DNA from: Haloquadratum walsbyi J07HQW2
GTDB lineage: Archaea > Halobacteriota > Halobacteria > Halobacteriales > Haloferacaceae
Assembly (NCBI RefSeq): GCF_000415985.1
Contig: NZ_KE356561.1
Location: forward strand, 2,388,289 to 2,452,288
Reading direction: 5' to 3'
DNA length: 64,000 nt
The position numbers and the translations under genes are program-made. Numbering within the stretch: the first letter of the stretch is position 1; each line of letters starts with the position of its first letter. Under the pieces are notes generated by a model. The model ran no database searches, had not been told where the DNA came from, and saw only the letters and a program-made list of their open reading frames with translations. Below are positions 1,373 to 16,037 of this stretch, piece after piece.

Positions 1373-3100
1373 ATGTTCGACAAATTTGACAAATCTGATC
1401 TTGAAGGTCCAGAAATAGATCGACGTACAGCAGTCAAACTCTTCGCCGCTGGCGGTATTTCTTCACTCGCCGGATGCGCTGGTGGTTCTAGTGATCCTAG
1501 CGGGGGTGATACCGGAGATGCCGAAACTGGCTCAGAAAGTGCTAGTGGATCAGGCGGTGGCTCCATCACTGCAGGATGGAATATTGACCAAATTGAATAT
1601 CTTGATCCGCATTATATTGACAAAGGTCAGGAAATATACCTCTCATCGAATGTATATAGCGGATTAGTGAAAATCGGTGCTGATGGCTCAATCACTGGTG
1701 ACTTAGCGAAGAACTGGACGCTTCCTGACAGTTCAACATACGTGTTCGATCTCAAAGAGGGTGCAACGTTCCATAATGGAGACCCTCTTGATGCAGAAGC
1801 GGTAAAGGCATCATTTGAACGACTGATGAGTCTCGATGACTCCCCTCATCTCGGGAAGGTCTCGTCTGTCGAAGAAATCACTGCTGAGGACCCGACCACA
1901 CTCCGAATTAGCTTATCAGAAACTGTTGGACCGTTCATCTCATTCTTAACACGTGGTCCAGGACGAGCGGGAACCATTGTCCATGCACCGACTGCAACAG
2001 ACAACCCAGAAGAATACAACCGTATGCCGGTCGGTAGTGGAGCATTTGAAGTAACTGAGCGAGAATCTGGAGAATATCTTCAATTAGAAGCGCATGATGG
2101 ATACTTTGGGACTGATAGTGACGGAACTGCGCTCCCATATCTCGACTCAGTTCGAATTGATTTAATCCCTGAACCATCAACAATGTGGACAGCGATTCAG
2201 GGCAGTGAACTCGACTATTCAATCAGTATTCCTCCACAGAACGCTGGTCAAGCAGAATCAATGGGTAGTCTTAGCGTCACTGGATCAAACCCTGGTGCAT
2301 GGTTCGCCGTTGCACCACTATGTACTAATCCAGCTGAGGTTGAATGGGACCAATATGCGAGTGGCGAGGCACAATCAACGGACAAATGGTCGAGTGAGGA
2401 CCTCCCAACAACGAGTAAAGAGGTTCGTCAAGCCATTTCGATGGCTATTGACCGCGAAGCATTAGTCGAGCGTGCATTCTTCGGATATGCAGAACCTGCT
2501 CATTCTGTATTCAACCCTGCTATTGCGTGGCTACACGATCAAGAACCTGATCCAGGTCAGTACTACGATCCAGACACTGCAAAACAGCTACTTGATGAGG
2601 CTGGATACACAGGCGAACCCCGGATGTCTCTCTCGCTGCTCGGGACACCAGGCGATGAACGTCGGATGACAGTCGTTCAGAGCATGCTTTCGGAGGTCGG
2701 TATTGAGGTTGAACTTAATATTCAACCTTCCTCTGCATACTGGGATAACCTATATCAGTATTCAAACGAGCTAGTGATGTATGATGGCTATGTCGACATC
2801 GACCCTTGGATGTCACTATGGAAACAACTGAAGACACCGGTTGAATCTGGGTCTGCTGGTAAGTGGCAAGCAAACCTCTATAATAATCCTGAGTTTAATT
2901 CTCTGCTTGAAGAGGATCTTCGGACGTCAGATCCTGATTCAAGAACAGAACTTCTTCGCCAAGCAGAGGAAATTTTCATTGAGGATACACCATGGGCAAT
3001 GACAACATTCCCACTTATCCCGAAGGCAGCATCCTCGAGTCTCAGTGGTGTTGGTAACCAAGCAGGATTGAGTAACTTCCATACAGCGCAAATTGAATAA
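1373..3100 (+). CDS. Peptide/nickel-type ABC transporter solute-binding lipoprotein
   Basis: 575 residues of SBP_bac_5 (DppA/OppA, cluster C) type. The N-terminus has twin arginines at 17-18 followed by a hydrophobic stretch and a lipobox LAGC with Cys35, so it should be Tat-exported and lipid-anchored outside the cell. A Gly/Ser/Glu linker follows, then the standard lobe order: an LDPHYIDKGQEIYLSS region near residue 78, the YVFDLKEGATFHNGDPL hallmark near 125, the EVRQAISMAIDREALV segment near 350, and the C-terminal lobe with DPDTAKQLLDEAGY near 400. It should bind peptides or similar solutes; the exact ligand is unknown. It is the first gene of a tight operon, with permease B starting on the next base after its stop. 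It is the useful reference for the permuted paralogue at 7367. Confidence 0.92.
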   Translation: MFDKFDKSDLEGPEIDRRTAVKLFAAGGISSLAGCAGGSSDPSGGDTGDAETGSESASGSGGGSITAGWNIDQIEYLDPHYIDKGQEIYLSSNVYSGLVKIGADGSITGDLAKNWTLPDSSTYVFDLKEGATFHNGDPLDAEAVKASFERLMSLDDSPHLGKVSSVEEITAEDPTTLRISLSETVGPFISFLTRGPGRAGTIVHAPTATDNPEEYNRMPVGSGAFEVTERESGEYLQLEAHDGYFGTDSDGTALPYLDSVRIDLIPEPSTMWTAIQGSELDYSISIPPQNAGQAESMGSLSVTGSNPGAWFAVAPLCTNPAEVEWDQYASGEAQSTDKWSSEDLPTTSKEVRQAISMAIDREALVERAFFGYAEPAHSVFNPAIAWLHDQEPDPGQYYDPDTAKQLLDEAGYTGEPRMSLSLLGTPGDERRMTVVQSMLSEVGIEVELNIQPSSAYWDNLYQYSNELVMYDGYVDIDPWMSLWKQLKTPVESGSAGKWQANLYNNPEFNSLLEEDLRTSDPDSRTELLRQAEEIFIEDTPWAMTTFPLIPKAASSSLSGVGNQAGLSNFHTAQIE

Positions 3101-4060
3101 ATGGGTATTGAGCGATATGTTGCCAAACGTACACTACAAGCAATAGTCGTTGTCTACATCGTTGCCACAGCGGTCTTTATTGCCGTTCGCTCCGTTCCTG
3201 GTGACCCAGCACGACTTGTGCTCGGTGGGACCGCCGAACCGGATGCTCTTGCTGCTGTTCGAGCTGAGCTCGGACTTAACCAGCCTCTCCATATACAGTA
3301 TCTACGCTGGATGGGTGATTTGCTGACAGCTGATTTCGGCACGTCGATATATACGGGTGAGGCTGTACTTTCGCGCATCTTCGGTGCGGCTGAACCAACA
3401 CTAAGTATCGGTCTTATCGGTATCACAATCGCGCTTCTTGTTTCGATCCCAGCCGGTATCATCAGTGCAACTCGTCGTAGTCAGTGGCAAGATCATGCGG
3501 CGACGGGAATCGCATTTCTCGGTATCAGTATGCCATCATTTTGGATTGGAATAGTGCTTTTGCTCACAGTCGGTACCGCCGTTCCAGCGATTCCATCGTA
3601 TGGATATTCATCAATTAGTGACGGAATATTACCATGGCTCAGTCATATCATTCTCCCTGGTCTTGCCGTTGGACTTCCATATGCCGGTATCCTAACCCGA
3701 ATGACTCGCTCATCAATGCTTGAAGTGTTAAGTGAGGATTATATGCAGACTGCTCGGGCTAAGGGACTGTCACCACGATTGATCTTACTAAAACACGGGC
3801 TCCAAAATGCGCTTCTCCCGGTTGTGACCATCGCAGGGATTCTTTTTGCACTTCTTCTCGCCGGTATTGTGGCCGTTGAAATTGTCTTTGGAATCCAGGG
3901 CTTCGGTCGCTTACTTATTCGCTCGATTGAGCGTCAAGACTTCCCGCTTGTGCAAGGATCAGTTATTGTTATTTCAATTATATTTGTATTTATGAATTTA
4001 TTCATCGACTTGCTATACATGTCAATTAATCCGAAGATTCGATATGGGAGTGATGCCTGA
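3101..4060 (+). CDS. Peptide ABC transporter permease (DppB type)
   Basis: 319 residues with six predicted membrane helices and the BPD_transp_1 fold. The N-terminus RYVAKRTLQAIVVVYIVAT is the usual DppB/OppB amphipathic start. It contains the RSVPGDPAR-like loop near residue 29, and the cytoplasmic EAA loop (YMQTARAKGLSPRLILLKHG) near 214, which contacts the ATPases. The start ATG lies directly after the stop of the binding protein, and its stop overlaps the next gene by one base (TGATG). It should form the translocation pore together with the DppC-type permease at 4060. Confidence 0.93.
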   Translation: MGIERYVAKRTLQAIVVVYIVATAVFIAVRSVPGDPARLVLGGTAEPDALAAVRAELGLNQPLHIQYLRWMGDLLTADFGTSIYTGEAVLSRIFGAAEPTLSIGLIGITIALLVSIPAGIISATRRSQWQDHAATGIAFLGISMPSFWIGIVLLLTVGTAVPAIPSYGYSSISDGILPWLSHIILPGLAVGLPYAGILTRMTRSSMLEVLSEDYMQTARAKGLSPRLILLKHGLQNALLPVVTIAGILFALLLAGIVAVEIVFGIQGFGRLLIRSIERQDFPLVQGSVIVISIIFVFMNLFIDLLYMSINPKIRYGSDA

Positions 4061-4962
4061 TGGGAGCCGATCATGATAATTACAGCCGTGATGGTAAGGA
4101 TACTTTCCTCAACATTCGGTTCGACCGACTTCGCGAGACGATTTCATCCGATCGTAAGGCGTTATTTGGATTAATAACCGTTATTGGATTTATTCTTGCA
4201 GCAGTTTTCGCACCTGAGCTCGCACCATTTGACCCAATGGCTCAGGAGTACGCAATCATGCAATCACCATCGCTCACGAGCGCACATCCATTTGGAACTG
4301 ATTCGTTCGGTCGCGACCTTCTCTCTCGGATCATGTTTGGTGCTCGGATCAGTCTTGGTGTCAGCCTTGGGGCTGTTTCTATTGCAGCCATCATCGGGGT
4401 GACGCTCGGTCTTGTCGCAGGGTATTACGGAGGACTGGTTGATGACATATTGATGCGATTCATCGATGTCCTCTGGGCGTTTCCATGGTTGCTTGTTGCT
4501 ATCATGCTCGTTGCAATCTTTGGACAAGGCGTTTGGAACGTAATCATTGCAGTTGCATTCGCCTATATTGATGATTTCGCTCGCATCATCCGTGGAGAAG
4601 TACTATCTATTCGTGAAGAGGAATTCGTTATGGCAGCCAAAAATATTGGAGTCGATGACCTACATATCATGATCGACGAGGTGCTTCCAAACGCTGTTGC
4701 GCCGCTTATCGTTCAATTCACTGTACTAGTTGCTCGTGCGATGCTTGCCGAGAGCACGCTGTCGTTCCTCGGGATCGGTGTGAAGCCGACTACCCCAACT
4801 TGGGGAGCTCTTCTTGGACAAGGAAGAGGGTTGATTGGGCAGGCATGGTGGATCTCAATTATTCCTGGCATTGCAATTGTCATCACCGTCCTTGGGATCA
4901 ATCTCTTTGGGGATGCTTTGCGTGATACATTTGATGTTCGTCAGGGAGGTGGGTCACCGTGA
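4060..4962 (+). CDS. Peptide ABC transporter permease (DppC type)
   Basis: 300 residues. A hydrophilic N-terminus of about 40 residues is followed by the first helix (ALFGLITVIGFILAAVFAPE) and the periplasm-facing loop with the DppC signature HPFGTDSFGRDLLSRI near residue 76. Five further helices surround the EAA loop EEEFVMAAKNIGVDDLHI near 186. The length is standard for DppC. Its start overlaps the stop of DppB, and its stop overlaps the GTG start of the downstream ATPase by four bases, so translational coupling is likely. It is the second half of the inner-membrane channel. Confidence 0.93.
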   Translation: MGADHDNYSRDGKDTFLNIRFDRLRETISSDRKALFGLITVIGFILAAVFAPELAPFDPMAQEYAIMQSPSLTSAHPFGTDSFGRDLLSRIMFGARISLGVSLGAVSIAAIIGVTLGLVAGYYGGLVDDILMRFIDVLWAFPWLLVAIMLVAIFGQGVWNVIIAVAFAYIDDFARIIRGEVLSIREEEFVMAAKNIGVDDLHIMIDEVLPNAVAPLIVQFTVLVARAMLAESTLSFLGIGVKPTTPTWGALLGQGRGLIGQAWWISIIPGIAIVITVLGINLFGDALRDTFDVRQGGGSP

Positions 4963-6053
4963 CAGGCTCTGACCCACTGCTTGAGATGCGCGATCTTGCG
5001 GTCACGTTTCCTGTTGATGACGGACCGGATATTCAAGCTGTCGAGAGTGTTGATCTCACTCTCCGCCAAGGGGAAGTTCATGGTCTCGTCGGTGAATCTG
5101 GCTCCGGAAAAAGTGTTACTGCGCGAGCCATCCTTCGATTACTTGATGATGCGCGAGTGAACGCTGATGAACTCACGTTTGACTCCACGGACCTACTTGC
5201 GCAATCTGAAAAAGACATGCGATCGACTCGTGGTGCTGAGATTGGAATGATTTTTCAAGACTCATTATCAGCACTAAATCCAGTTATGACCGTTGGGGAG
5301 CAGATCGCCGAGGTGGTTAGACATCATACTGATGTTGGAGAGTCAACCGGGACTTTGAGTGAACTAAGACGAAAATACATCACTGGGACAGATGAAACGT
5401 CAGAATCATGGAAGCGTGCTGTTGAGCTACTTGAAATAGTTGGTATTCCTGATGCTAGCACGCGAGCAAGTGAATATCCGCATCAGCTGAGTGGTGGTCA
5501 GCGACAGCGCGTAATGATCGCACAGGCGCTTGCTGGCGACCCTTCAGTTATCATCGCGGATGAACCAACAACAGCACTAGATGTGACAGTTGAAGCCGAT
5601 ATCCTTGCTGAGTTGCGCAGTCTCTGTGATGATTTTGACGTTTCTGTTCTGCTCATCACACACGATCTTGGTGTTGTTGCTGAAACATGTGACCGTGTCA
5701 CGGTCATGTACTCTGGGTCCGTGATGGAGCAAGGTCTGACTGACAGTATATTTACAAGTCCATCACATCCGTATACTGAAGGATTGCTGCAGAGTATCCC
5801 TGAATATAGTGCGCAATCAAACGATGGCGAATTGCGGACAACCCCTGGGTCTGCGCCTGATCCTAGGAACCGTCCTGATGGATGTCCATTCCGCGACCGT
5901 TGTCCGATTGCGTTTGATGCATGTAGCAAACCGCTTCCAACGCATAGTGTCACCGATGACCATATTATACGCTGTCATGATTTCACAAATGACCGTCCAG
6001 GGGATGCATCGGGCAAACCGCAACAAGCACAAGAGATTGAGGTAAGTGAATGA
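4959..6053 (+). CDS. Peptide ABC transporter ATP-binding protein (DppD/OppD type)
   Basis: 364 residues, GTG start at 4959 preceded by GGAGGTGGG (Shine-Dalgarno-like) and overlapping the previous stop by four bases. Walker A is GESGSGKS near residue 43. The signature LSGGQRQRV is near 175, Walker B ([12 protein letters not shown]) near 198 and the H-loop ITHDLGVV near 225. The C-terminal oligopeptide-transporter extension has the cysteine pattern [14 protein letters not shown] plus a later Cys, which in this family forms a metal or iron-sulfur site. It should energise peptide uptake as a heterodimer with the ATPase at 6050. A hydrophilic tail of about 20 residues follows the last Cys. Confidence 0.92.
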
Positions 6054-7234
6054 ATTCAGGACTCTCAGATACAGGACCAGGATCTCCCAAAAGGAACGAA
6101 ACGGTCACTCAGCAAGATACAGACACTACAACGACATCTGATAATCGTTACCGTCGAGAAATCATGCGTGTTGCCGGGCTCAAGAAGTACTTCCCAACCG
6201 AAACTGGGTTTTTTGAACGGTTCTTTGGTGAACAACAGCACGCGAAAGCTGTTGATGGTATCGACTTGACTGTTCATGAGGGTGAAACTGTTGGGATCGT
6301 CGGCGAATCTGGGTGTGGTAAGAGCACACTCGGTCGAACGTTGACTCGGCTGTATGAACCAACTGATGGCAGTGTCATCTTTGATTATGACCATATCGAG
6401 ACACTTTCCGGAAGCGACCTTCGACCTATTCGTCGTCGAATGCAGTATGTCTTTCAGGACCCACTTTCGGCACTAAATCCACGAAAAACGGTTGGCGAAA
6501 GTGTCGCCAAACCACTTGAGGTACATGACATCGCTGATGGTGAAGCAAAATGGAACAGGGTTATAGAGCTATTTGAGGAGGTTGGACTCTCACATTCAGA
6601 TATTGATGTCTATCCGCATCAACTGAGCGGTGGTCAACGTCAGCGTGTCGGACTCTGCCGCGCGCTCATTACAGAGCCTGATCTTATCGTTTTTGATGAG
6701 CCTGTTTCTGCACTTGATGTAACTCTCCAGGCACAAATTTTGAATCTCATTGATGAACTTCAGGATACGTACGACCTCTCGTATGTATTTATATCACACG
6801 ACCTCAATGTCGTTCGACACGTCTGTGATCGGATTGCAGTCATGTATGCCGGTGAAATCGTCGAACGAGGACACGCAGATGACATTTTCAATAATCCACA
6901 ACACCCATACACTAAGGTGCTCTTGCGTGCAATTCCGAGTATTCGTGATGAGGATCATGAGCGTGAATCGCTTGCAGGCACCCCACCGAGTGTCACCAAT
7001 CCACCGAGCGGTTGTCGTTTCCACACACGCTGCCCAGAGTTCATCGATGGACAATGCGTCAATCAGAACCCCGAAAATCACACTGTAGACGGCGATGATA
7101 ATCATACTGTTGCTTGTCATTGGACTGAACGAAGCGATCATGAGCGTGAAAATCACGTGCCACCGTCACAATCTGATAGGGAAATAATCAAACGCGAAGC
7201 AAGTACCCAGGGCGATAGTCATAACGGCTCATAG
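6050..7234 (+). CDS. Peptide ABC transporter ATP-binding protein (DppF/OppF type)
   Basis: 394 residues, ATG at 6050 overlapping the previous stop by four bases. About 40 hydrophilic residues precede the ABC domain, which opens with VAGLKKYFP. Walker A is GESGCGKS near residue 85, the signature [15 protein letters not shown] near 191 and Walker [13 protein letters not shown] near 214. The C-terminus carries the peptide-transporter Cys cluster (CRFHTRCP, a later Cys and a final Cys in VACHW), then an acidic tail. It is the last gene of the first peptide operon; 132 bases separate it from the next operon. Role: second ATPase half for the 1373-7234 importer. Confidence 0.92.
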   Translation: MNSGLSDTGPGSPKRNETVTQQDTDTTTTSDNRYRREIMRVAGLKKYFPTETGFFERFFGEQQHAKAVDGIDLTVHEGETVGIVGESGCGKSTLGRTLTRLYEPTDGSVIFDYDHIETLSGSDLRPIRRRMQYVFQDPLSALNPRKTVGESVAKPLEVHDIADGEAKWNRVIELFEEVGLSHSDIDVYPHQLSGGQRQRVGLCRALITEPDLIVFDEPVSALDVTLQAQILNLIDELQDTYDLSYVFISHDLNVVRHVCDRIAVMYAGEIVERGHADDIFNNPQHPYTKVLLRAIPSIRDEDHERESLAGTPPSVTNPPSGCRFHTRCPEFIDGQCVNQNPENHTVDGDDNHTVACHWTERSDHERENHVPPSQSDREIIKREASTQGDSHNGS

Positions 7235-7366: not shown

Positions 7367-9217
7367 ATGGTTGATGACTCTGAGGTGAATCGACGTCGGT
7401 TCTTACGTGCGACTGGTGCCGTCGCGGCAACCGTTGGTGTTGCCGGATGTTCACAGGGCGGTGATGAGGGAACTGAAACACAAACACCCGACGACAACGG
7501 TGGTCCGACTTCTACGGAATTTTCTCGACCGTCATCATACCCGTATTCGCCTGGTGAGACTGATGTCCAAAGCGCACGATCGGTAATGGAAGAAGCTGGA
7601 TTTGGTCCAGATAACCGATATGAACTCAGTTGGACACAATATACCAGCCCAACATGGAAGGAAATCGCCAACACAGTTCGCGCTCGCCTTGAGTCTGCAT
7701 ATATCGATATGAGCATCAGCGAGGCAGACTTCGGCGCCCTTCTTGAATCGACTGAAAAAGGAGATCATGAGGCATTTACACTTGGCTGGATTGCTGACTA
7801 TCCTGCTCCACAGAACTTCCTCCAACTGGTTGACCCCGAAAACACGATTTATGATGCGGATGGGTATACCCCAAATGGTGCGCGATTATTCTGGTCAGAA
7901 GACGCAAATACCAATACATCTGTTAAAGAGTACCTTACTTCGCAGTTCAATCGAATTCAAAATAACCCTGGATTAGATGAAAGTGCTGTTCAGACTCGAA
8001 ATGATGCTGTTGGGAACATCGAAGCTGGATTATGGGAGTCTGCGGCATTACTCCCAATCTATCATGGTCTCTCTGAGCAGTTTTGGTATGATCGTGTTTC
8101 ATATAATCCACCTGGCGGTATGGGTGGCTCACGGTCAAAAACGAATGTTTCAGTCGGTGACGTTGCGGGGCAGGATAGACTGAGTGGGACATCAGCGACA
8201 TTTAGCGCGCTTGACCCAATTGCATCAGGAAATACTGCCTCTGGAGCAAAGATCATGAATATGTTTGATGCACCGATGAATTATCCAAATGGAAGCACAG
8301 AGGTTGAGCCACTTCTTATCAGCGACTATGAGGTCAATGATGATCTCACGCAGTATGAATTCACGTTGAAAGAGGGAATTCAATTCCATGGTGATTATGG
8401 AGAGGTAACTGCCGATGATGTGGTGTACTCAATTCGTCGACTCGTCGAGTCAAATAATTCGACAAATACGTACTTTCCAAATAGCGTGTTAAACATTGAG
8501 CGAGAGACTGACGCAGATGGGAATGTTATCCCTGACTCAACAGGAGTCGAAGCAACTGGTGAGTACTCATTCCAAATTACACTTCAGCAATCATTCAGTT
8601 ATACACTTGAGGTGCTTGCGTATTCGGCTTTCTCAGTCATTCCTGAGGGAATTGTTGGTGACATTGAAGGGTATGAGGGCGACATGTCACAAACTGAGTT
8701 TTCTACCTCAAACCCAATCGGAACCGGTCCCTTCAGATTTATTGAGTGGAACTCTGGCAACGGTGGCTCATTCACTGTTGATCGGTTTGACGAATATCAT
8801 GGACAACAAGCAGCTATTGAGGGTATCGATAGTGCAATAATCACTGATACGACCGCATCATACAATTACTTCTTGAATGAAAATGCCGATGTTGCGGGTA
8901 TTCCGACTTCGAAGTACGACCCTGAGAAAGTGTCAATAGAATCAAGTGAGGGACCACAAGAATTTGGCACGTACGGTCCGCTTGAGAACGACAAGATGGT
9001 TAATATGGCTCGTACTCCAACAATTAATACATATTACGTTGGATTCCATATGGAGAAAGTCCCGAAAGCAGTTCGACAGGCGATGGCGTACGTAACCAAT
9101 CGTGAGCAGTTCGTCAATGATGTATTCAAAGGTCGTGGCGTTCCTGCATATCACCTTACGCCACCACAAGTATACCCCGGTGGATCCTCAGCGTATAATT
9201 CACATTGGCAGGGATAA
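7367..9217 (+). CDS. Peptide-type ABC solute-binding lipoprotein with circularly permuted lobes
   Basis: 616 residues. Tat-type lipoprotein signal: arginines at 9-11 (RRRFLRATG) and lipobox VAGC with Cys28. After a Gly/Thr/Glu linker the order of SBP_bac_5 segments is inverted compared with the paralogue at 1373. Residues about 58-240 match what is normally the C-terminal lobe (TDVQSARSVMEEAGFGPD, then WKEIANTVRARLES and FTLGWIADYPAPQNFLQ). Residues about 270-560 match the usual N-terminal lobe (FSALDPIASGNTASG, then YEFTLKEGIQFHGDYGEVTA). The protein ends with the segment usually in the middle (KAVRQAMAYVTNREQFVNDV, then PPQVYP). The ORF is continuous and the start is preceded by an AT-rich gap. 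It should bind solute for the 9354-14741 transporter. Confidence 0.88.
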   Translation: MVDDSEVNRRRFLRATGAVAATVGVAGCSQGGDEGTETQTPDDNGGPTSTEFSRPSSYPYSPGETDVQSARSVMEEAGFGPDNRYELSWTQYTSPTWKEIANTVRARLESAYIDMSISEADFGALLESTEKGDHEAFTLGWIADYPAPQNFLQLVDPENTIYDADGYTPNGARLFWSEDANTNTSVKEYLTSQFNRIQNNPGLDESAVQTRNDAVGNIEAGLWESAALLPIYHGLSEQFWYDRVSYNPPGGMGGSRSKTNVSVGDVAGQDRLSGTSATFSALDPIASGNTASGAKIMNMFDAPMNYPNGSTEVEPLLISDYEVNDDLTQYEFTLKEGIQFHGDYGEVTADDVVYSIRRLVESNNSTNTYFPNSVLNIERETDADGNVIPDSTGVEATGEYSFQITLQQSFSYTLEVLAYSAFSVIPEGIVGDIEGYEGDMSQTEFSTSNPIGTGPFRFIEWNSGNGGSFTVDRFDEYHGQQAAIEGIDSAIITDTTASYNYFLNENADVAGIPTSKYDPEKVSIESSEGPQEFGTYGPLENDKMVNMARTPTINTYYVGFHMEKVPKAVRQAMAYVTNREQFVNDVFKGRGVPAYHLTPPQVYPGGSSAYNSHWQG

Positions 9218-9353: not shown

Positions 9354-10442
9354 ATGAACCGGTCTATCTACTTACTGAAACGACTTACATTAGCCATTCC
9401 AGTCCTCCTCTTTGGACTGACAATGTCGTTTTTGATTATGTATAAAGGTCCGATCGATCCAGTATTATCGATCCTTGGTCGAGATGCAAACCCTGAGGCT
9501 GCTCGTCAACTTCGAATTTCTCTGGGGATCATCCGTCCTAACGGGACACCAATTCCGCTATGGGAACAATACGGGATGGTATTACGCAATCTTGTTACCT
9601 TCCAATTTGGTCAGTCATGGATTATCCAGCGCGGTGCATCCGTTCAAACCGTTATCCTCGGGCGGATGGCGCCTACGCTGTGGCTCGGGTGGTGGTCAGT
9701 TGTCATTGCATTATTAATTGGTATACCAGTTGGACTATATGCTGGGCTCAAAGCGAACACATGGGGCGATTACTTCGCCTCTGGTGGCGGTATCATCTGG
9801 CGAGCGATGCCTAATTTTTGGCTTGCAGTGATGATTGCTGGAAGTCTCTCGGCTGGTGGTGTTCTTTCGTGGTATCGCGCATTTGGCGTGAACACCGATG
9901 TCATTGGGACACCAGCCGCGGTGCGACAGCTCTTTACTGTCATTGACCCTTTCGGAGCAGTACCACTCATTGGATTAATTGTCATCCCTGTTCCGAATGT
10001 TGAAAATTTCATTATTGCATTCAAGTGGATTCTGCCTGCAGCCCTTGTGTTGGGGTCAGCGTCGATGGGGAATGAAATTCGGATTGGCCGGACAGCGGTA
10101 CTTGAGAGTCTTAATTCGAAATATATCGAAACGGCAAAAGCAAAAGGACTCTCAGCACGGCGAATAATTATCAAACATGTTGGCCGTAACGCAATTGTGC
10201 CACTACTCCCAGTGATTATGGGTGAGTTTTATTTGCTCATCGGCGGATCAGTGTTAGTCGAGCAGGTATTCAGTATTAATGGGCTTGGTAACCTGTTTTT
10301 CCGGGCGATCCTCGGTCCAGATATTCCTGTCGTGATGACACTCATCTTTGTCTTTATCATCATTCAAATACTATTCAATATTGTACAGGATCTTCTCTAC
10401 ACAGTTGTCGATCCGAGAATCACACTCGAAGATACCGAATAA
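9354..10442 (+). CDS. Peptide-type ABC transporter permease (DppB type), second operon
   Basis: 362 residues, somewhat longer than the DppB at 3101. The N-terminus YLLKRLTLAIPVLLFGLT is typical. An expanded extracytoplasmic region between helices includes a hydrophobic VPLIGLIVIPVPNVEN segment around residue 205. The EAA loop is recognisable as YIETAKAKGLSARRIIIKH near 258, and the C-terminus ends LLYTVVDPRITL, the usual DppB end. Its TAA overlaps an ATG by one base. 136 AT-rich bases separate it from the permuted binding protein. It pairs with the DppC-type protein at 10593. Confidence 0.9.
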   Translation: MNRSIYLLKRLTLAIPVLLFGLTMSFLIMYKGPIDPVLSILGRDANPEAARQLRISLGIIRPNGTPIPLWEQYGMVLRNLVTFQFGQSWIIQRGASVQTVILGRMAPTLWLGWWSVVIALLIGIPVGLYAGLKANTWGDYFASGGGIIWRAMPNFWLAVMIAGSLSAGGVLSWYRAFGVNTDVIGTPAAVRQLFTVIDPFGAVPLIGLIVIPVPNVENFIIAFKWILPAALVLGSASMGNEIRIGRTAVLESLNSKYIETAKAKGLSARRIIIKHVGRNAIVPLLPVIMGEFYLLIGGSVLVEQVFSINGLGNLFFRAILGPDIPVVMTLIFVFIIIQILFNIVQDLLYTVVDPRITLEDTE

Positions 10443-10627
10443 TGAATGACCCCGAATACTTCCCTGTTGATACTGCTGACACTCCTAACAGTATCACGCC
10501 GCATGGATTTGCTATGCTATCCGGTGATTCACTTCGAGTCTTAGGTGTCCTAAATTCAACTCAGCGCCCGTTCCACATCACAATCGATTCACATGTGCGC
10601 ACGCTCTCACACAACTTCAACCGTTGA
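10442..10627 (+). CDS. Possible small upstream ORF overlapping the second DppC start
   Basis: 61 codons beginning one base before the end of the DppB stop, in a different reading frame from the downstream permease, which it overlaps by 35 bases. The product is hydrophilic and resembles no family I recognise. It could be a short coupling ORF, or the original N-terminus of the DppC-type protein separated by a frameshift. The frame of the permease has stops at 10542 and 10551, so the permease cannot extend upstream in its own frame. The evidence is only position and coupling. Confidence 0.25.
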   Translation: MNDPEYFPVDTADTPNSITPHGFAMLSGDSLRVLGVLNSTQRPFHITIDSHVRTLSHNFNR

Positions 10628-12155
10628 GACGACCACTGACGATCCGTTTCAGCGCGATGGACAATCAGTTCGCGCTCGCATCACCGCCGAACCAACGCCG
10701 GCAGCTAGATGGGCACTTGTCGCGATTGGACTTCTTGCAGTTGAGTTCGGTGCCTTTCTAAGTGGACTACTGACGATTCTCGATGGCATTGTCATCGGTC
10801 TGACGGCGTTTATTGATATTGCTGTCGGCATCATCAACCCACAGCTTGCAACTACCGTCGTTGACATACAGACAGCGGCTTCAAATGCGATTACAACCGC
10901 TCGTGATGCCGCTGAGGGCATTCCAACCCTTTTGAGTCGCGAAACAATCCCAAATCAGGGTCATCTCATGGGTCCTAACGGACCGTGGACTGGTCCGATA
11001 CTTGGCGTTGAACCGGCTTTCGCATGGGCAATTCGTGCAGTATTGATTGTTGGATACTCGTTGTTTGTTTTTTATTGGATTTTCCGAGGATGGACAATCT
11101 TCCGAGATCACTATCGACAGGCTGCATGGACGCCGACTGATGATATCGTTGATCGCCTTTCTGAGCACCGCTGGGGACAATTTGGGATTATCATTATTGC
11201 CTTATTCATTACAATGGCACTGTTCGGACCCGCACTCGGACCAACCACTGTTGAGCAAAATATTATTTCACCGTATAGTCATGAGGTTACGTATTTCAAT
11301 GCTGACAGCCAGAGTGTTGAGACAATTACGGCTGGCGATGCCAATTTTGACTCTAAATCAAAGGGATCGAGTGAACAAAATGTAGGTCCAATGAGCTATG
11401 ATGAATTCAATCGATTTCACCCGTTCGGCACTCTCCCGAACGGTCGGGATTTATTTACATTTATGATGGGTGGGGCACGGATCACACTCATCGTTGCTGG
11501 TCTTGCAATCGGATTAAGTAGTCTCATTGCTGCCACGCTTGCGATGATGTCTGCATTCTATGGTGGGCGAATTGACCTTGGTATCCTAACAACAGCTGAT
11601 GGTGTTGTCTCCATCCCACAATTGCTTCTATTAATCATGATCAGTGCTGTCTTTGCTGATCACTGGCTTGCAACAGTATTAGATGGTGGCTTCCTTCTCG
11701 CGCTGATCTTTGCATTTACTGGGTGGCCGTTTCTCTGGCGGGCTGTTCGTGGACCGGCACTACAAGTTGCTCGCGAATCATGGGTTGATGCCGCCCGCAG
11801 TTTCGGACAGGCTCCACGGACAATTATGCGAAAACATATGCTTCCATATGTCACTGGATATCTCTTAGTGTATGCTTCACTCTCAACTGGGGGAATCATT
11901 ATTGGACTTGCTGCTTTGTCCTTTCTTGGCAATGGTCTTGGAATCACACCACCAACACCAGCATGGGGACGGGCGGTTTCACTTGGACAAAGCTATGTCT
12001 CCAGTTCGTCCTGGCATATTTCATTACTCCCCGGATTAATGATCGTTCTCCTTGTGACTGGATTGAACGCATTTGGTGATGGACTTCGAGATGCAATTGA
12101 CCCAGAGAGCGATGGCAGCGATCGTACCGAAGGAGCGACTGGAGGTGGTGCTTGA
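10593..12155 (+). CDS. Peptide-type ABC transporter permease (DppC type) with long N-terminal membrane extension
   Basis: 520 residues, about 220 longer than the DppC at 4060. The first ~170 residues form an extra module: a hydrophilic start, a strongly hydrophobic stretch from about residue 40 to 90, an Ala/Thr-rich loop, then another helix (AIRAVLIVGYSLFVFYWIF) near 148. The canonical part begins with FGIIIIALFITMALFGPALG near 196. An extracellular insertion follows, then the DppC hallmark HPFGTLPNGRDLFTFMMGGA near 275, and the EAA loop SWVDAARSFGQAPRTIMRKH near 395. ATG 10593 is the first start in frame after stops at 10542 and 10551. Its stop overlaps the next ATG (TGATG). It should be the second pore subunit of this importer. 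Confidence 0.88.
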   Translation: MCARSHTTSTVETTTDDPFQRDGQSVRARITAEPTPAARWALVAIGLLAVEFGAFLSGLLTILDGIVIGLTAFIDIAVGIINPQLATTVVDIQTAASNAITTARDAAEGIPTLLSRETIPNQGHLMGPNGPWTGPILGVEPAFAWAIRAVLIVGYSLFVFYWIFRGWTIFRDHYRQAAWTPTDDIVDRLSEHRWGQFGIIIIALFITMALFGPALGPTTVEQNIISPYSHEVTYFNADSQSVETITAGDANFDSKSKGSSEQNVGPMSYDEFNRFHPFGTLPNGRDLFTFMMGGARITLIVAGLAIGLSSLIAATLAMMSAFYGGRIDLGILTTADGVVSIPQLLLLIMISAVFADHWLATVLDGGFLLALIFAFTGWPFLWRAVRGPALQVARESWVDAARSFGQAPRTIMRKHMLPYVTGYLLVYASLSTGGIIIGLAALSFLGNGLGITPPTPAWGRAVSLGQSYVSSSSWHISLLPGLMIVLLVTGLNAFGDGLRDAIDPESDGSDRTEGATGGGA

Positions 12156-13288
12156 TGGAATCATCAGCTCCCGGCTCTAACGCGAGTTCGGTCACGGATA
12201 GCCAACGAGATGCATCCCCACTGGGTCAACCTAATGATGATGTGGTGCTCTCTGTCCGTGATCTCACGACAGTGTTTCGCACCGATCATGAAACGATTCA
12301 TGCCGTCGACAGTATTGATTTTGATGTTCACCGCGGCGAAACGGTTGGTATCGTCGGTGAATCTGGGTCTGGAAAAAGCGTGACCGCCCGCTCAATTATG
12401 GGTCTGATTGATGCACCGGGTGAGATACTCCCCACATCGTCTATCAGATTCAACGACACAGAGCTCACCAACTGTGACGATGATCAATATCGAGCAATCC
12501 GTGGTAATGGTATTGGAATGGTATTCCAAGACCCTCAACAATCGCTCAATCCGGTCTATACAATCGGCAACCAGATCCGGGAGGCACTTTCCGTGAACCA
12601 GAGTATCCGCGGCGAGGAGGCTCGGGAACGAGCGATTGAACTACTCGAAGCTGTTGCAATCCCAGATCCTGCTCGCCGACTATCGGAGTATCCACATGAG
12701 TTCTCTGGGGGAATGCGACAGCGAGCAGTTATTGCGATGATGCTTGCCTGTGACCCGGAATTTCTCATTTGTGATGAACCAACAACAGCCCTTGATGTAA
12801 CTATCCAAGCACAGATTCTCGATCTTTTCACCAATATACAGCAGGAGCGTGATCTCTCAATTCTGTTTATTACTCACGATATGGGTGTGATTGCACAAAT
12901 TGCAGACCGCGTCAACGTTGTTTATGCAGGTGAGATTGTTGAACGGGCTCCTGTTGAGCGACTGTTTCAGTCCCCACAGCATCCATATACACGTGGTCTA
13001 CTGGAGGCGATTCCTGGACGACGGTCCGGTGATGACGGACTGCGGACAATCGACGGTGATGTTCCAACGCCACATGCGCCTGCGACTGAGTGTCGATTTG
13101 CGCCGCGGTGTCCGAAAGCCTTCGATGAGTGTGAAGCTGTGCCGCCACAACATGTCAGCGTTGATGATGACTCAGCTCATACCGCAGCTTGTCTTCTTTA
13201 TCCGGAGCAAAAGGAAGAATCAGCACGTGTGGCGGAACATCGCCGTCGTGCACAGACAGATGTCGATGGAGGTGATTATCATGAGTAA
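12155..13288 (+). CDS. Peptide-type ABC transporter ATP-binding protein (DppD type), second operon
   Basis: 377 residues from ATG 12155, which shares its A with the preceding TGA; a TTG three bases upstream is the only nearby alternative. GGAGGTGGTG at 12141 is a good ribosome-binding site. Walker A GESGSGKS lies near residue 68. The signature is [10 protein letters not shown] near 184, with Met in place of the more usual Gln, and Walker B is [11 protein letters not shown] near 204. The C-terminal Cys cluster [14 protein letters not shown] and a later Cys are present, as in other OppD-like ATPases. It overlaps the following ATPase gene by eight bases. Confidence 0.91.
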
Positions 13289-14741
13289 ACCAGCTGATTC
13301 ACGTTCTGATCCTGATGAGTCAATACGGTCTCCACAGTCAGTCTCCAATATGGATACAGATCCGCTTGTGACTGTCAGAGATTTAAAGACATACTATGGT
13401 GGTGATGGTGCATTCGCGGATCCGCCGGTAAAGGCAGTTGATGGAGTTAGTTTTCAAATTGAGCGTGGTGAGACACTTGGATTGGTTGGTGAATCCGGTT
13501 CTGGAAAAACAACGCTAGGGCGTACACTTGTCCGGTTAGAAGCGGCAACCGCAGGAGAAATTACATTTGACGGCACTGATGTCACGACTTTAGATAGCGA
13601 TTCACTCACTGAGTGGCGCCAGCGTGCGCAGATCGTATTTCAGGATCCTGAGTCAAGTCTTAACGATCGTATGACCGTTGGTGAGATCATTCGTGAACCA
13701 CTTGATGCACACGGATGGGGAACAAAACAAAAACGCCGTGATCGTGTTCAAACGCTACTTGCTGATGTTGGACTTCAACCGGAACATTACGTCAGATATC
13801 CACATCAGTTCTCAGGTGGTCAACGTCAACGTGTCGGTATTGCACGTGCACTCGCACTTGAGCCGGAATTTCTCGTACTCGATGAGCCAGTGAGTGCGCT
13901 TGACGTGAGTGTTCAAGCGAAGATCATTTCCCTTCTTGACGACCTCCAAACGAAATTCGGATTGACGTATCTCTTCATTGCTCACGATCTTTCAGTAGTC
14001 AGACATATTTGTGATCGAGTTGCAGTATTGTATCTTGGCAAAATAATGGAGATTGGTGAGACAGAGCAGTTGTATCAAAGCCCACAGAATCCATATACAC
14101 GGGCACTACTTTCCGCAATTCCAAATCCAGACCCACAGGACACGACTACGCGTATCACACTTCCGGGGACACCGCCAAGTCCTCGTGATCCTCCGACAGG
14201 ATGTCAGTTCGCGACACGATGTCCAGCAAAACTCCGCCCAAGTGAACTTGAACATCTTGATACAACAACATGGGAGCGTATTGAGCGCTTTCGCGAAGTT
14301 GTTCGAGAGCGCTCCCGGGTAGACCCTGGTGTTCGTGGGCAGATTGCTCGGCGGCTCGGATTATTCTCAGCACACGATGACATCGATTCAGCCGTTGTAG
14401 ACCTCTTTGGTGACTTAGATGAGTGCCCACCAATAGTCGCTGATTCTATTGGATCAGCTGTTGAGCATATTAAATCAGGCTATCCCGAGAAGGCACGTGA
14501 GTCACTTCGAGATACCTTTGGCAGTATCTGTGACCGCGAAGAGCCGACACTACAGGCTGTCAACACTGGTGACACTCGCGACTCATCATCTTCTCCGACA
14601 GCGATGACACAACGAAGCTATTGTCACTGTCATAAATCTGAACATGATGATGTCTCAACGATATTTGACCGACGTCTTGATGACCCTGACGCTGGAACAC
14701 ATTCGTCTGTCGATCAGACTGATCACTCATACGATCAATAA
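13281..14741 (+). CDS. Peptide-type ABC transporter ATP-binding protein (DppF type) with C-terminal insertion
   Basis: 486 residues, about 100-150 longer than a usual DppF. I chose ATG 13281, preceded by GGAGGTG, because upstream codons in this frame overlap the previous ATPase gene. Walker A is GESGSGKT near 70, the signature [15 protein letters not shown] near 178 and Walker [12 protein letters not shown] near 198. The C-terminal cysteine region is interrupted. CQFATRCP near 308 is followed by about 70 mostly helical, charged residues before ECPP near 381 and a further Cys (SICD) near 416. A Ser/Thr/Asp-rich tail with YCHCHK near 447 then follows. It should form the ATPase pair with 12155. 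Its stop overlaps the ATG of the small membrane protein by one base. Confidence 0.9.
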
Positions 14742-15205
14742 TGACACAGATATCTAAACTGACATTACAACTGACTGATTTTTTACTTTGGGTGTTATTT
14801 ACTTCGACAGTGACTGTCATCACGAGCGGTGTTACTGCGCTTATTATCTGGGCGAATCTCATCGCAGTAAAAAACGCATTATTTGCGGTTGGTATCGTTC
14901 TTTTTGGCATTGGGAGTATTGGAATTCAGCCAGAGCGTATTCGTCGTCGTGCAACTAATACTCGCTCAGCCGGTGCCACGGAGTCATCAAGCGGGACACG
15001 CCCACAGGTATCACTTGGACAGTTTTCGGTTGATACTAACGCTGAGTATGGATTTGAACAGCGAATTCAAACAATCCCACCGTTACGTGATAACCGGCTG
15101 TCGTTTGGTGAACGAATCAGTCGAGACTGGAAGATCTTTGCGACAAGTCTCCTTGTCCTTGCGACGTCACTTTATTTTGAAATTGGACTTGATGTTCATA
15201 TTTAA
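14741..15205 (+). CDS. Small membrane protein ending the second peptide ABC operon
   Basis: 154 residues, translationally coupled to the ATPase (its ATG starts on the last base of the TAA). Two hydrophobic helices sit in the first 60 residues (LLWVLFTSTVTVITSGVTAL, then ALFAVGIVLFGIGSIG). A hydrophilic stretch of about 70 residues follows, then a C-terminal hydrophobic segment (IFATSLLVLATSLYFEIGL). No enzymatic motif is visible and I do not recognise the family. Its invariant-looking position at the operon end suggests an accessory or stabilising subunit of the transporter, which is inference only. Confidence 0.75.
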   Translation: MTQISKLTLQLTDFLLWVLFTSTVTVITSGVTALIIWANLIAVKNALFAVGIVLFGIGSIGIQPERIRRRATNTRSAGATESSSGTRPQVSLGQFSVDTNAEYGFEQRIQTIPPLRDNRLSFGERISRDWKIFATSLLVLATSLYFEIGLDVHI

Positions 15206-15386
15206 TCGACTTATCCAGCACAAGATATTCATAAATACGTCATTTCAACGAATCAATTGAACCAATACCAATCTCAGCGTCAATCTGACGTCTATCACGT
15301 TTAGTGGTACCATATCTTAACTCTCATGAAAGCCCAGTCAAAATTGGGGGAACATTCAGGCTGATGGGCTATCATACACTTGTATA

Positions 15387-16037
15387 ATGCGGATTGGTCC
15401 AGACTCTGGTATTCCCGGTGAGCAATCTCGTAAGCACAACACGAACAGTGACCCGACACATATTGCTGCTGCTTCTGATGCTGTTCGCGATGGATGGAAA
15501 GCAACGATCAAGGATACTTACCGTATGATTGATGATCGCGAAACAGACGGACACCATACTGCTCTTGTGATTGCTGCTGAGACAGCACCTCGTGGATCTG
15601 ATGGTGGTGATATAGATAATATTATTGATATATCTGAGTCTGTCATCATTACCCCACCTGAGGGTTCATCTGTGCCGACATGGGGACTCAGATATACCGT
15701 CCCGCGCAACGCACAAGAAGCACTCGGGTTTATCGAACCACCCTTTACCGTGAATGAGACGCTTGTATATCAACGAGCAGTTGAGGGAACAGTATTCATT
15801 GTCACCGAATGTATTTGCACTGAGGAAATATCCGCACCGCAGTCGTTGTTTATTGCTGGCGCGTACCCATCTGGTCATGCTAAATCACTGGTGAGAGTTG
15901 CAACGAATCACGATCGAATGTTTTCACATCTTAGCTATCTTGATGGAACACACATTGTGACACTCTCACATGACGACTCAACCACATTTTTCCCGAATCC
16001 TGAGCGGTTTCTCGATGCTGGATTAGATAAAAAATAA
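15387..16037 (+). CDS. Haloarchaeal conserved hypothetical protein
   Basis: 216 residues, acidic, soluble, no signal peptide or membrane segment. A possibly helical N-terminal part contains DGWKATIKDTYRMIDDRE, followed by TALVIAAETAPRGSD. A central beta-rich part contains GLRYTVPRNAQEALGFIEPP and TVFIVTECICTEE. The C-terminal part ends with a predicted strand-rich FSHLSYLDGTHIVTLSHDD segment. The pattern looks like a conserved protein of haloarchaea, but I cannot name a function. About 180 bases separate it from the ABC operon and it probably has its own promoter. Codon use matches its neighbours. Confidence 0.75.
   Translation: MRIGPDSGIPGEQSRKHNTNSDPTHIAAASDAVRDGWKATIKDTYRMIDDRETDGHHTALVIAAETAPRGSDGGDIDNIIDISESVIITPPEGSSVPTWGLRYTVPRNAQEALGFIEPPFTVNETLVYQRAVEGTVFIVTECICTEEISAPQSLFIAGAYPSGHAKSLVRVATNHDRMFSHLSYLDGTHIVTLSHDDSTTFFPNPERFLDAGLDKK

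Follow-up and report, generated by a model that had tools for sequence, protein, structure and literature searches.

The open reading frame (ORF) at positions 7367–9217 on the plus strand of the window (i.e., the whole 64,000-nucleotide stretch of Haloquadratum walsbyi J07HQW2 DNA that was analysed) raises the question of whether a solute-binding protein (SBP) with its segments in swapped order can be a functional receptor, and of how such an order arose. Our reading, to which we assign a probability of roughly 0.85, is that this gene encodes a working lipid-anchored SBP of a peptide-type ABC importer and was circularly permuted, likely via tandem duplication, in a process that is recurrent in haloarchaea.

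The ORF is intact, with an ATG at 7367 and a stop codon ending at 9217, and encodes 616 aa. It matched Pfam SBP_bac_5 (PF00496) with 199.5 bits, as compared to a cut-off of 32.4, and the two parts that the preliminary description had proposed to align separately both map to this one profile in swapped order (residues 54–155 on profile positions 248–360 and residues 312–611 on positions 1–259). Against PDB sequences, the protein in its natural order was split on HbpA (6ofq; residues 251–486 on 13–242 and residues 57–158 on 347–445), and the rotated sequence (residues 271–616 followed by 56–262) aligned with DppA (1dpp) 21–417 in a single stretch, scoring 92.3 bits rotated vs. 81.6 bits in natural order. 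Judged by these alignments and by colinear orthologues, the protein is a genuinely circularly permuted cluster C (SBP_bac_5) SBP, as had been claimed, and a permuted variant set apart from ordinary members of the family, as the domain order I-II-I-III-I is absent unless the sequence is rotated. The SBP at 1373–3100, used in the original comparison, is only distant kin. AlphaFold2 models had a low mean pLDDT for both the permuted protein (44.5) and a canonical control, L046 (49.2), with 13 and 17 input sequences, respectively, and were too uncertain to bear on the fold; the failure of the control suggests that shallow alignments, rather than the permutation, are the cause.

We designated the segments A (residues ~278–606), B (57–180), and C (186–253), the canonical order being A-B-C and the order in the window protein B-C-A (BCA). 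Residues 1–55 (7367–7531) comprise a twin-arginine signal, a lipobox with Cys 28, and a low-complexity linker; although the TAT_signal profile match falls slightly below its cut-off, residues 9–28 present the twin-arginine signal followed by a lipobox Cys that is typical of a haloarchaeal Tat lipoprotein, with the lipid itself predicted from these motifs. Segments B and C (residues ~56–255; 7532–8131) include the native C-tail and the larger part of domain III (profile positions 248–360, DppA 327–417, and segment HMMs). They are followed by the C-A junction (residues ~250–278; 8114–8200), in which comparison with canonical relatives places the native C-tail directly against the native mature start, and by segment A (8198–9184), which covers domains I and II along with the beginning of domain III (profile positions 1–259, DppA 21–315). 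A new short C-terminus of ~10 aa, located by alignment at the cut within domain III, and the stop codon occupy 9185–9217; this tail measures 2–12 aa across BCA proteins. The moved piece thus spans residues ~56–255, instead of 58–240 as first described, and the second part runs from ~278 up to the stop.

Orthologues from independent genomes, with identities of 61–93%, are colinear with the window protein over residues 1–616 and come from Haloquadratum, Halolamina, Halorhabdus, Halapricum, Halorubrum, Halodesulfurarchaeum, Halobacterium, and other genera. The search of haloarchaeal genomes for the same order that had been suggested yielded, with segment HMMs, 31 BCA proteins (including one from Halobacterium salinarum, L043), which group as a single clade in trees and all carry the Tat and lipobox motifs. 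Relative to its two nearest orthologues the window protein has a dN/dS of ~0.03–0.05, with weaker constraint at the C-A junction (~0.10–0.15). Colinear orthologues, purifying selection, and motifs in 31 of 31 proteins bear out the view that this is a fixed, exported architecture. They also reduce to practically nothing the chance of an artefact, either a chimeric assembly or unrelated domains that merely resemble SBP pieces; only the oddity of the order speaks for it, while the same order occurs in isolates and metagenome-assembled genomes of many genera, the rotated sequence is colinear with DppA, and purifying selection is strong. In H. walsbyi J07HQW1, a second copy of the permuted gene, truncated to residues 1–130 and 92% identical, is present elsewhere in the genome (L047, 5001–5396).

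As the preliminary description stated, the permuted gene heads a peptide-type ABC operon. It is followed on the plus strand by genes for a DppB/OppB-type permease (9354–10442; BPD_transp_1), a DppC/OppC-type permease with a long N-terminal extension (10593–12155; BPD_transp_1 and OppC_N), a DppD/OppD-type ATPase (12152–13288; ABC_tran and oligo_HPY, with NCBIfam support), and a DppF/OppF-type ATPase (12891–14741; ABC_tran at residues 184–334 and oligo_HPY); the latter ORF is listed from a TTG at 12891, and its true start probably lies near 13284, past the upstream gene. One operon thus contains the gene set of a Dpp/Opp importer (an SBP, two permeases, and two oligo_HPY ATPases), and every BCA gene whose flanks were retrieved stands first in a permease/ATPase operon of a like kind with the same gene order. 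Another peptide/nickel-type ABC operon, complete and with a canonical SBP first (1373–7234), immediately precedes the permuted gene on this strand, ending ~130 bases before it; downstream (14741–16037), two small ORFs match DUF7555 and DUF7529, families without an assigned function.

The nearest canonical relatives of the window protein, including L046 (Halorussus ruber), L112, and L139, are ~45–50% identical to it, have twin-arginine signals, and present the A-B-C order. L112 heads an operon of the same kind; no matching operon was found beside L046 within the fetched flank. L046 (4812–6626) apparently lacks the lipobox Cys (LTGTAAGQ) and may be released instead of anchored. Another canonical SBP of this family, encoded by an 880-aa ORF on the minus strand (L033), is followed by two halocyanin-like (cupredoxin-like) domains, and other long SBP ORFs (824–1006 aa) may resemble it.

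In DppA, the amino group of a bound dipeptide is held by D436 (PMC12136057), and AliD D501 is the corresponding Asp, with the same W-x-x-D motif (PMC11192437). D144 of the window protein (codon at 7796–7798) aligns with DppA D436, and the motif is kept in BCA proteins. Q91 takes the place of DppA R383, the carboxylate-binding Arg, which makes a DppA-type dipeptide clamp unlikely. With D144 kept but the equivalent of R383 absent, the ligand is probably a peptide. The protein accordingly resembles Escherichia coli DppA and OppA in belonging by sequence to cluster C, in its colinearity, once rotated, with DppA 21–417, and in the conserved amino-group Asp, and differs from them in segment order and at the R383 position.

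A second rotation was found in proteins with the order C-A-B (CAB), whose search matches run unbroken from query residue ~190 to 612. By match coordinates, this order occurs in ~34 of 391 sampled genomes, and 22 CAB proteins were verified with segment HMMs. One of them, L080 (genome G326), was placed beside canonical L139 and L140, with 63–66% identity (66% to L139). One origin could not be rejected in a tree that included few canonical relatives; with better sampling, a single origin of all CAB proteins was rejected (p = 3e-8), and in a tree of transporter genes built without the SBP, the operon of L080 groups with canonical operons. The C-A-B rotation has therefore arisen at least twice. In the main CAB clade (L087, L079, L014, and others), LGWIWSW replaces LGWIADY and the Asp for the peptide amino group is lost, and this clade probably binds a different ligand; L080 retains this Asp. 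AU tests did not reject BCA and main CAB proteins as one clade (p = 0.42 and 0.32), which, along with C-A linkers of similar length, would be compatible with descent from a single A-B-C-A-B-C fusion that was cut back differently in the two lineages, in which case fewer fusions than orders would be needed. We regard this shared ancestor as unlikely, since L080 and further subfamilies nest among canonical proteins and the trees reject a single CAB clade.

Permutation extends beyond the one case that the preliminary description noted, and beyond the B-C-A and C-A-B families. A Pfam scan of six genomes found SBPs of 590–650 aa with a match stopping near profile position 285; these have the same rearrangement with a different cut, in a hairpin further along. 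Among 101 SBP_bac_5 matches in 24 haloarchaeal genomes, 39 ended early (four of the window type plus 35 that were fetched for checking), and in 33 of the 35 fetched proteins the ORF ended with the N-terminal block, preceded by >260 ORF residues. Permuted proteins thus account for 37 of 101 haloarchaeal matches, in 15 of the 23 genomes having matches; this is a lower limit, because CAB proteins still match the Pfam profile in full. In 25 Pseudomonadota genomes, one of 91 matches ended early and was canonical on inspection, leaving no permuted protein among these 91 matches. Fisher tests of haloarchaea vs. Pseudomonadota gave p = 1.5e-12 for proteins and 6.5e-7 for genomes, both overstated due to kinship among proteins and genomes. 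The three rejected candidates (L213 and L214 from haloarchaea and L216, the sole bacterial one) are canonical proteins with divergent C-termini. A census of Chloroflexota reached only matches of at least 176 bits, a range in which many permuted proteins would be missed, and was not counted as a control. At an E-value of 1e-34, the window family had no match in 299 genomes of the phylum of G611 or in 201 of the phylum of G613, a result that bears on close relatives only.

The rearrangement was also evident in a set of 39 permuted proteins in four clusters (33 from the census and six read earlier). In BLAST output read by eye, swapped hit pairs to canonical SBPs were present in all four clusters and in 26 of the 39 proteins, the best pair (L209 vs. 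L178) having E-values of 2e-79 and 2.5e-137; profile comparison of every cluster placed the front region on canonical columns ~380–545 and the rear block on 84–386. A tree of rotated sequences requires eight order changes, at least six of them on supported branches. This tree is blind to gain vs. loss, and reverting to canonical order would take an equally rare event. The permutation is therefore recurrent in haloarchaea, affecting several SBP_bac_5 subfamilies at several cut sites with at least six order changes.

The cuts were mapped through OppA and DppA and their domain limits. The cut in the window protein lies between DppA mature residues ~316 and 326, inside domain III; the hairpin cut is slightly past it and the CAB cut, approximately placed, later again, all within domain III. 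These positions derive from sequence alignment, the CAB position being the loosest. In the cluster C layout known from AliD, domain I comprises residues 29–63, 191–296, and 583–617 and domain III residues 297–582; domain III by itself forms lobe 2, domains I and II together form lobe 1, and both native termini are in domain I (PMC11192437). With the cuts in domain III and the native ends in domain I, two crossings of the chain between the lobes should remain, with the usual hinge strands, and the sole clear change should be an anchored N-terminus that sits on lobe 2 instead of lobe 1. The preliminary description had spoken of a lobe swap that could change the tether geometry and the hinge; a cut within lobe 2 does not support a lobe swap, and two crossings are expected as before, which should leave the hinge as it was, while the altered tether geometry is supported by the predicted shift of the anchor to lobe 2. 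According to a model of the Ami transporter, lobe contacts differ between its two permease subunits (PMC11192437), suggesting that the anchor would shift toward another side of the complex.

The BCA, CAB, and hairpin cuts all map to domain III, and none of the census matches has the late profile start that a cut in domain II should produce. Both observations would fit selection for the anchor shift itself, e.g., for a better orientation relative to the permease or beneath the S-layer, as would the Treponema pallidum protein Tp0684, which is likewise tethered and permuted and for which an adaptation to anchoring was proposed (PMC4990184). Lobe 2 may, however, be the only place that tolerates a cut, and canonical sisters with the same anchor head like operons in related genomes. 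We consider adaptive re-anchoring possible but less likely than not. The broader proposition, that at least six convergent permutations, all cutting lobe 2, were selected for re-anchoring and that about a third of haloarchaeal SBP_bac_5 proteins are now permuted as a result, seems to us possible but somewhat doubtful.

As for the origin, the C-A junction retains the native C-tail followed by the native mature start without a second signal peptide, the mark expected from tandem duplication, fusion, and trimming; on this comparison with canonical relatives, we consider such an origin likely. An ordinary SBP gene would have been duplicated in tandem, and the two copies would have fused in frame, the second signal peptide being lost; trimming of the first copy at its front and of the second at its back would then have given the permuted order. 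The resulting chain would close to an ordinary two-lobed cluster C fold, both native ends being in domain I, with an unchanged hinge and the membrane anchor attached to lobe 2 rather than lobe 1. SBP genes in tandem do occur (L114); no fused A-B-C-A-B-C intermediate was found among the proteins examined. Such fusions may also be frequent and neutral, tandem SBP genes often fusing and being trimmed, with the products kept since Tat exports folded proteins and an altered order of synthesis would be harmless. The tandem genes, a twin-arginine motif and lipobox-like Cys in all permuted proteins (including 39 of 39 further permuted proteins), several cut sites, and both orders side by side within subfamilies argue for this account, which we consider close to an even bet; drift alone, however, leaves the absence of lobe 1 cuts unexplained.

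The sole natural permuted SBP found in the openly licensed literature is Tp0684 (TpMglB-2; PDB 5JX2), proposed as "Type Ic / Cluster Bc" (PMC4990184). Like the window protein, it is a tethered SBP with a naturally circularly permuted order, and it binds ligand and changes shape. It has, however, a cluster B sugar-binding fold, whereas the window protein belongs by its sequence to cluster C, and its permutation adds an extra hinge crossing, whereas the window protein should keep two. We found no report, in the openly licensed literature, of natural permutation in cluster C, oligopeptide-binding, or haloarchaeal SBPs.

Natural circular permutations are mostly isolated curiosities. In this instance, a single family within one archaeal class presents all three segment rotations, with canonical sisters of up to 66% identity, and 37% of SBP_bac_5 matches in a small sample of haloarchaeal genomes are permuted. 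Domain searches show permuted SBPs as partial matches, leading to errors in annotation and in the transfer of ligand sites, and the natural cut sites represent ready insertion points for biosensor design. The family is a natural experiment for asking how permutation affects a lipid-anchored receptor, by which routes permutations arise, and whether ABC import depends on the position of the anchor.
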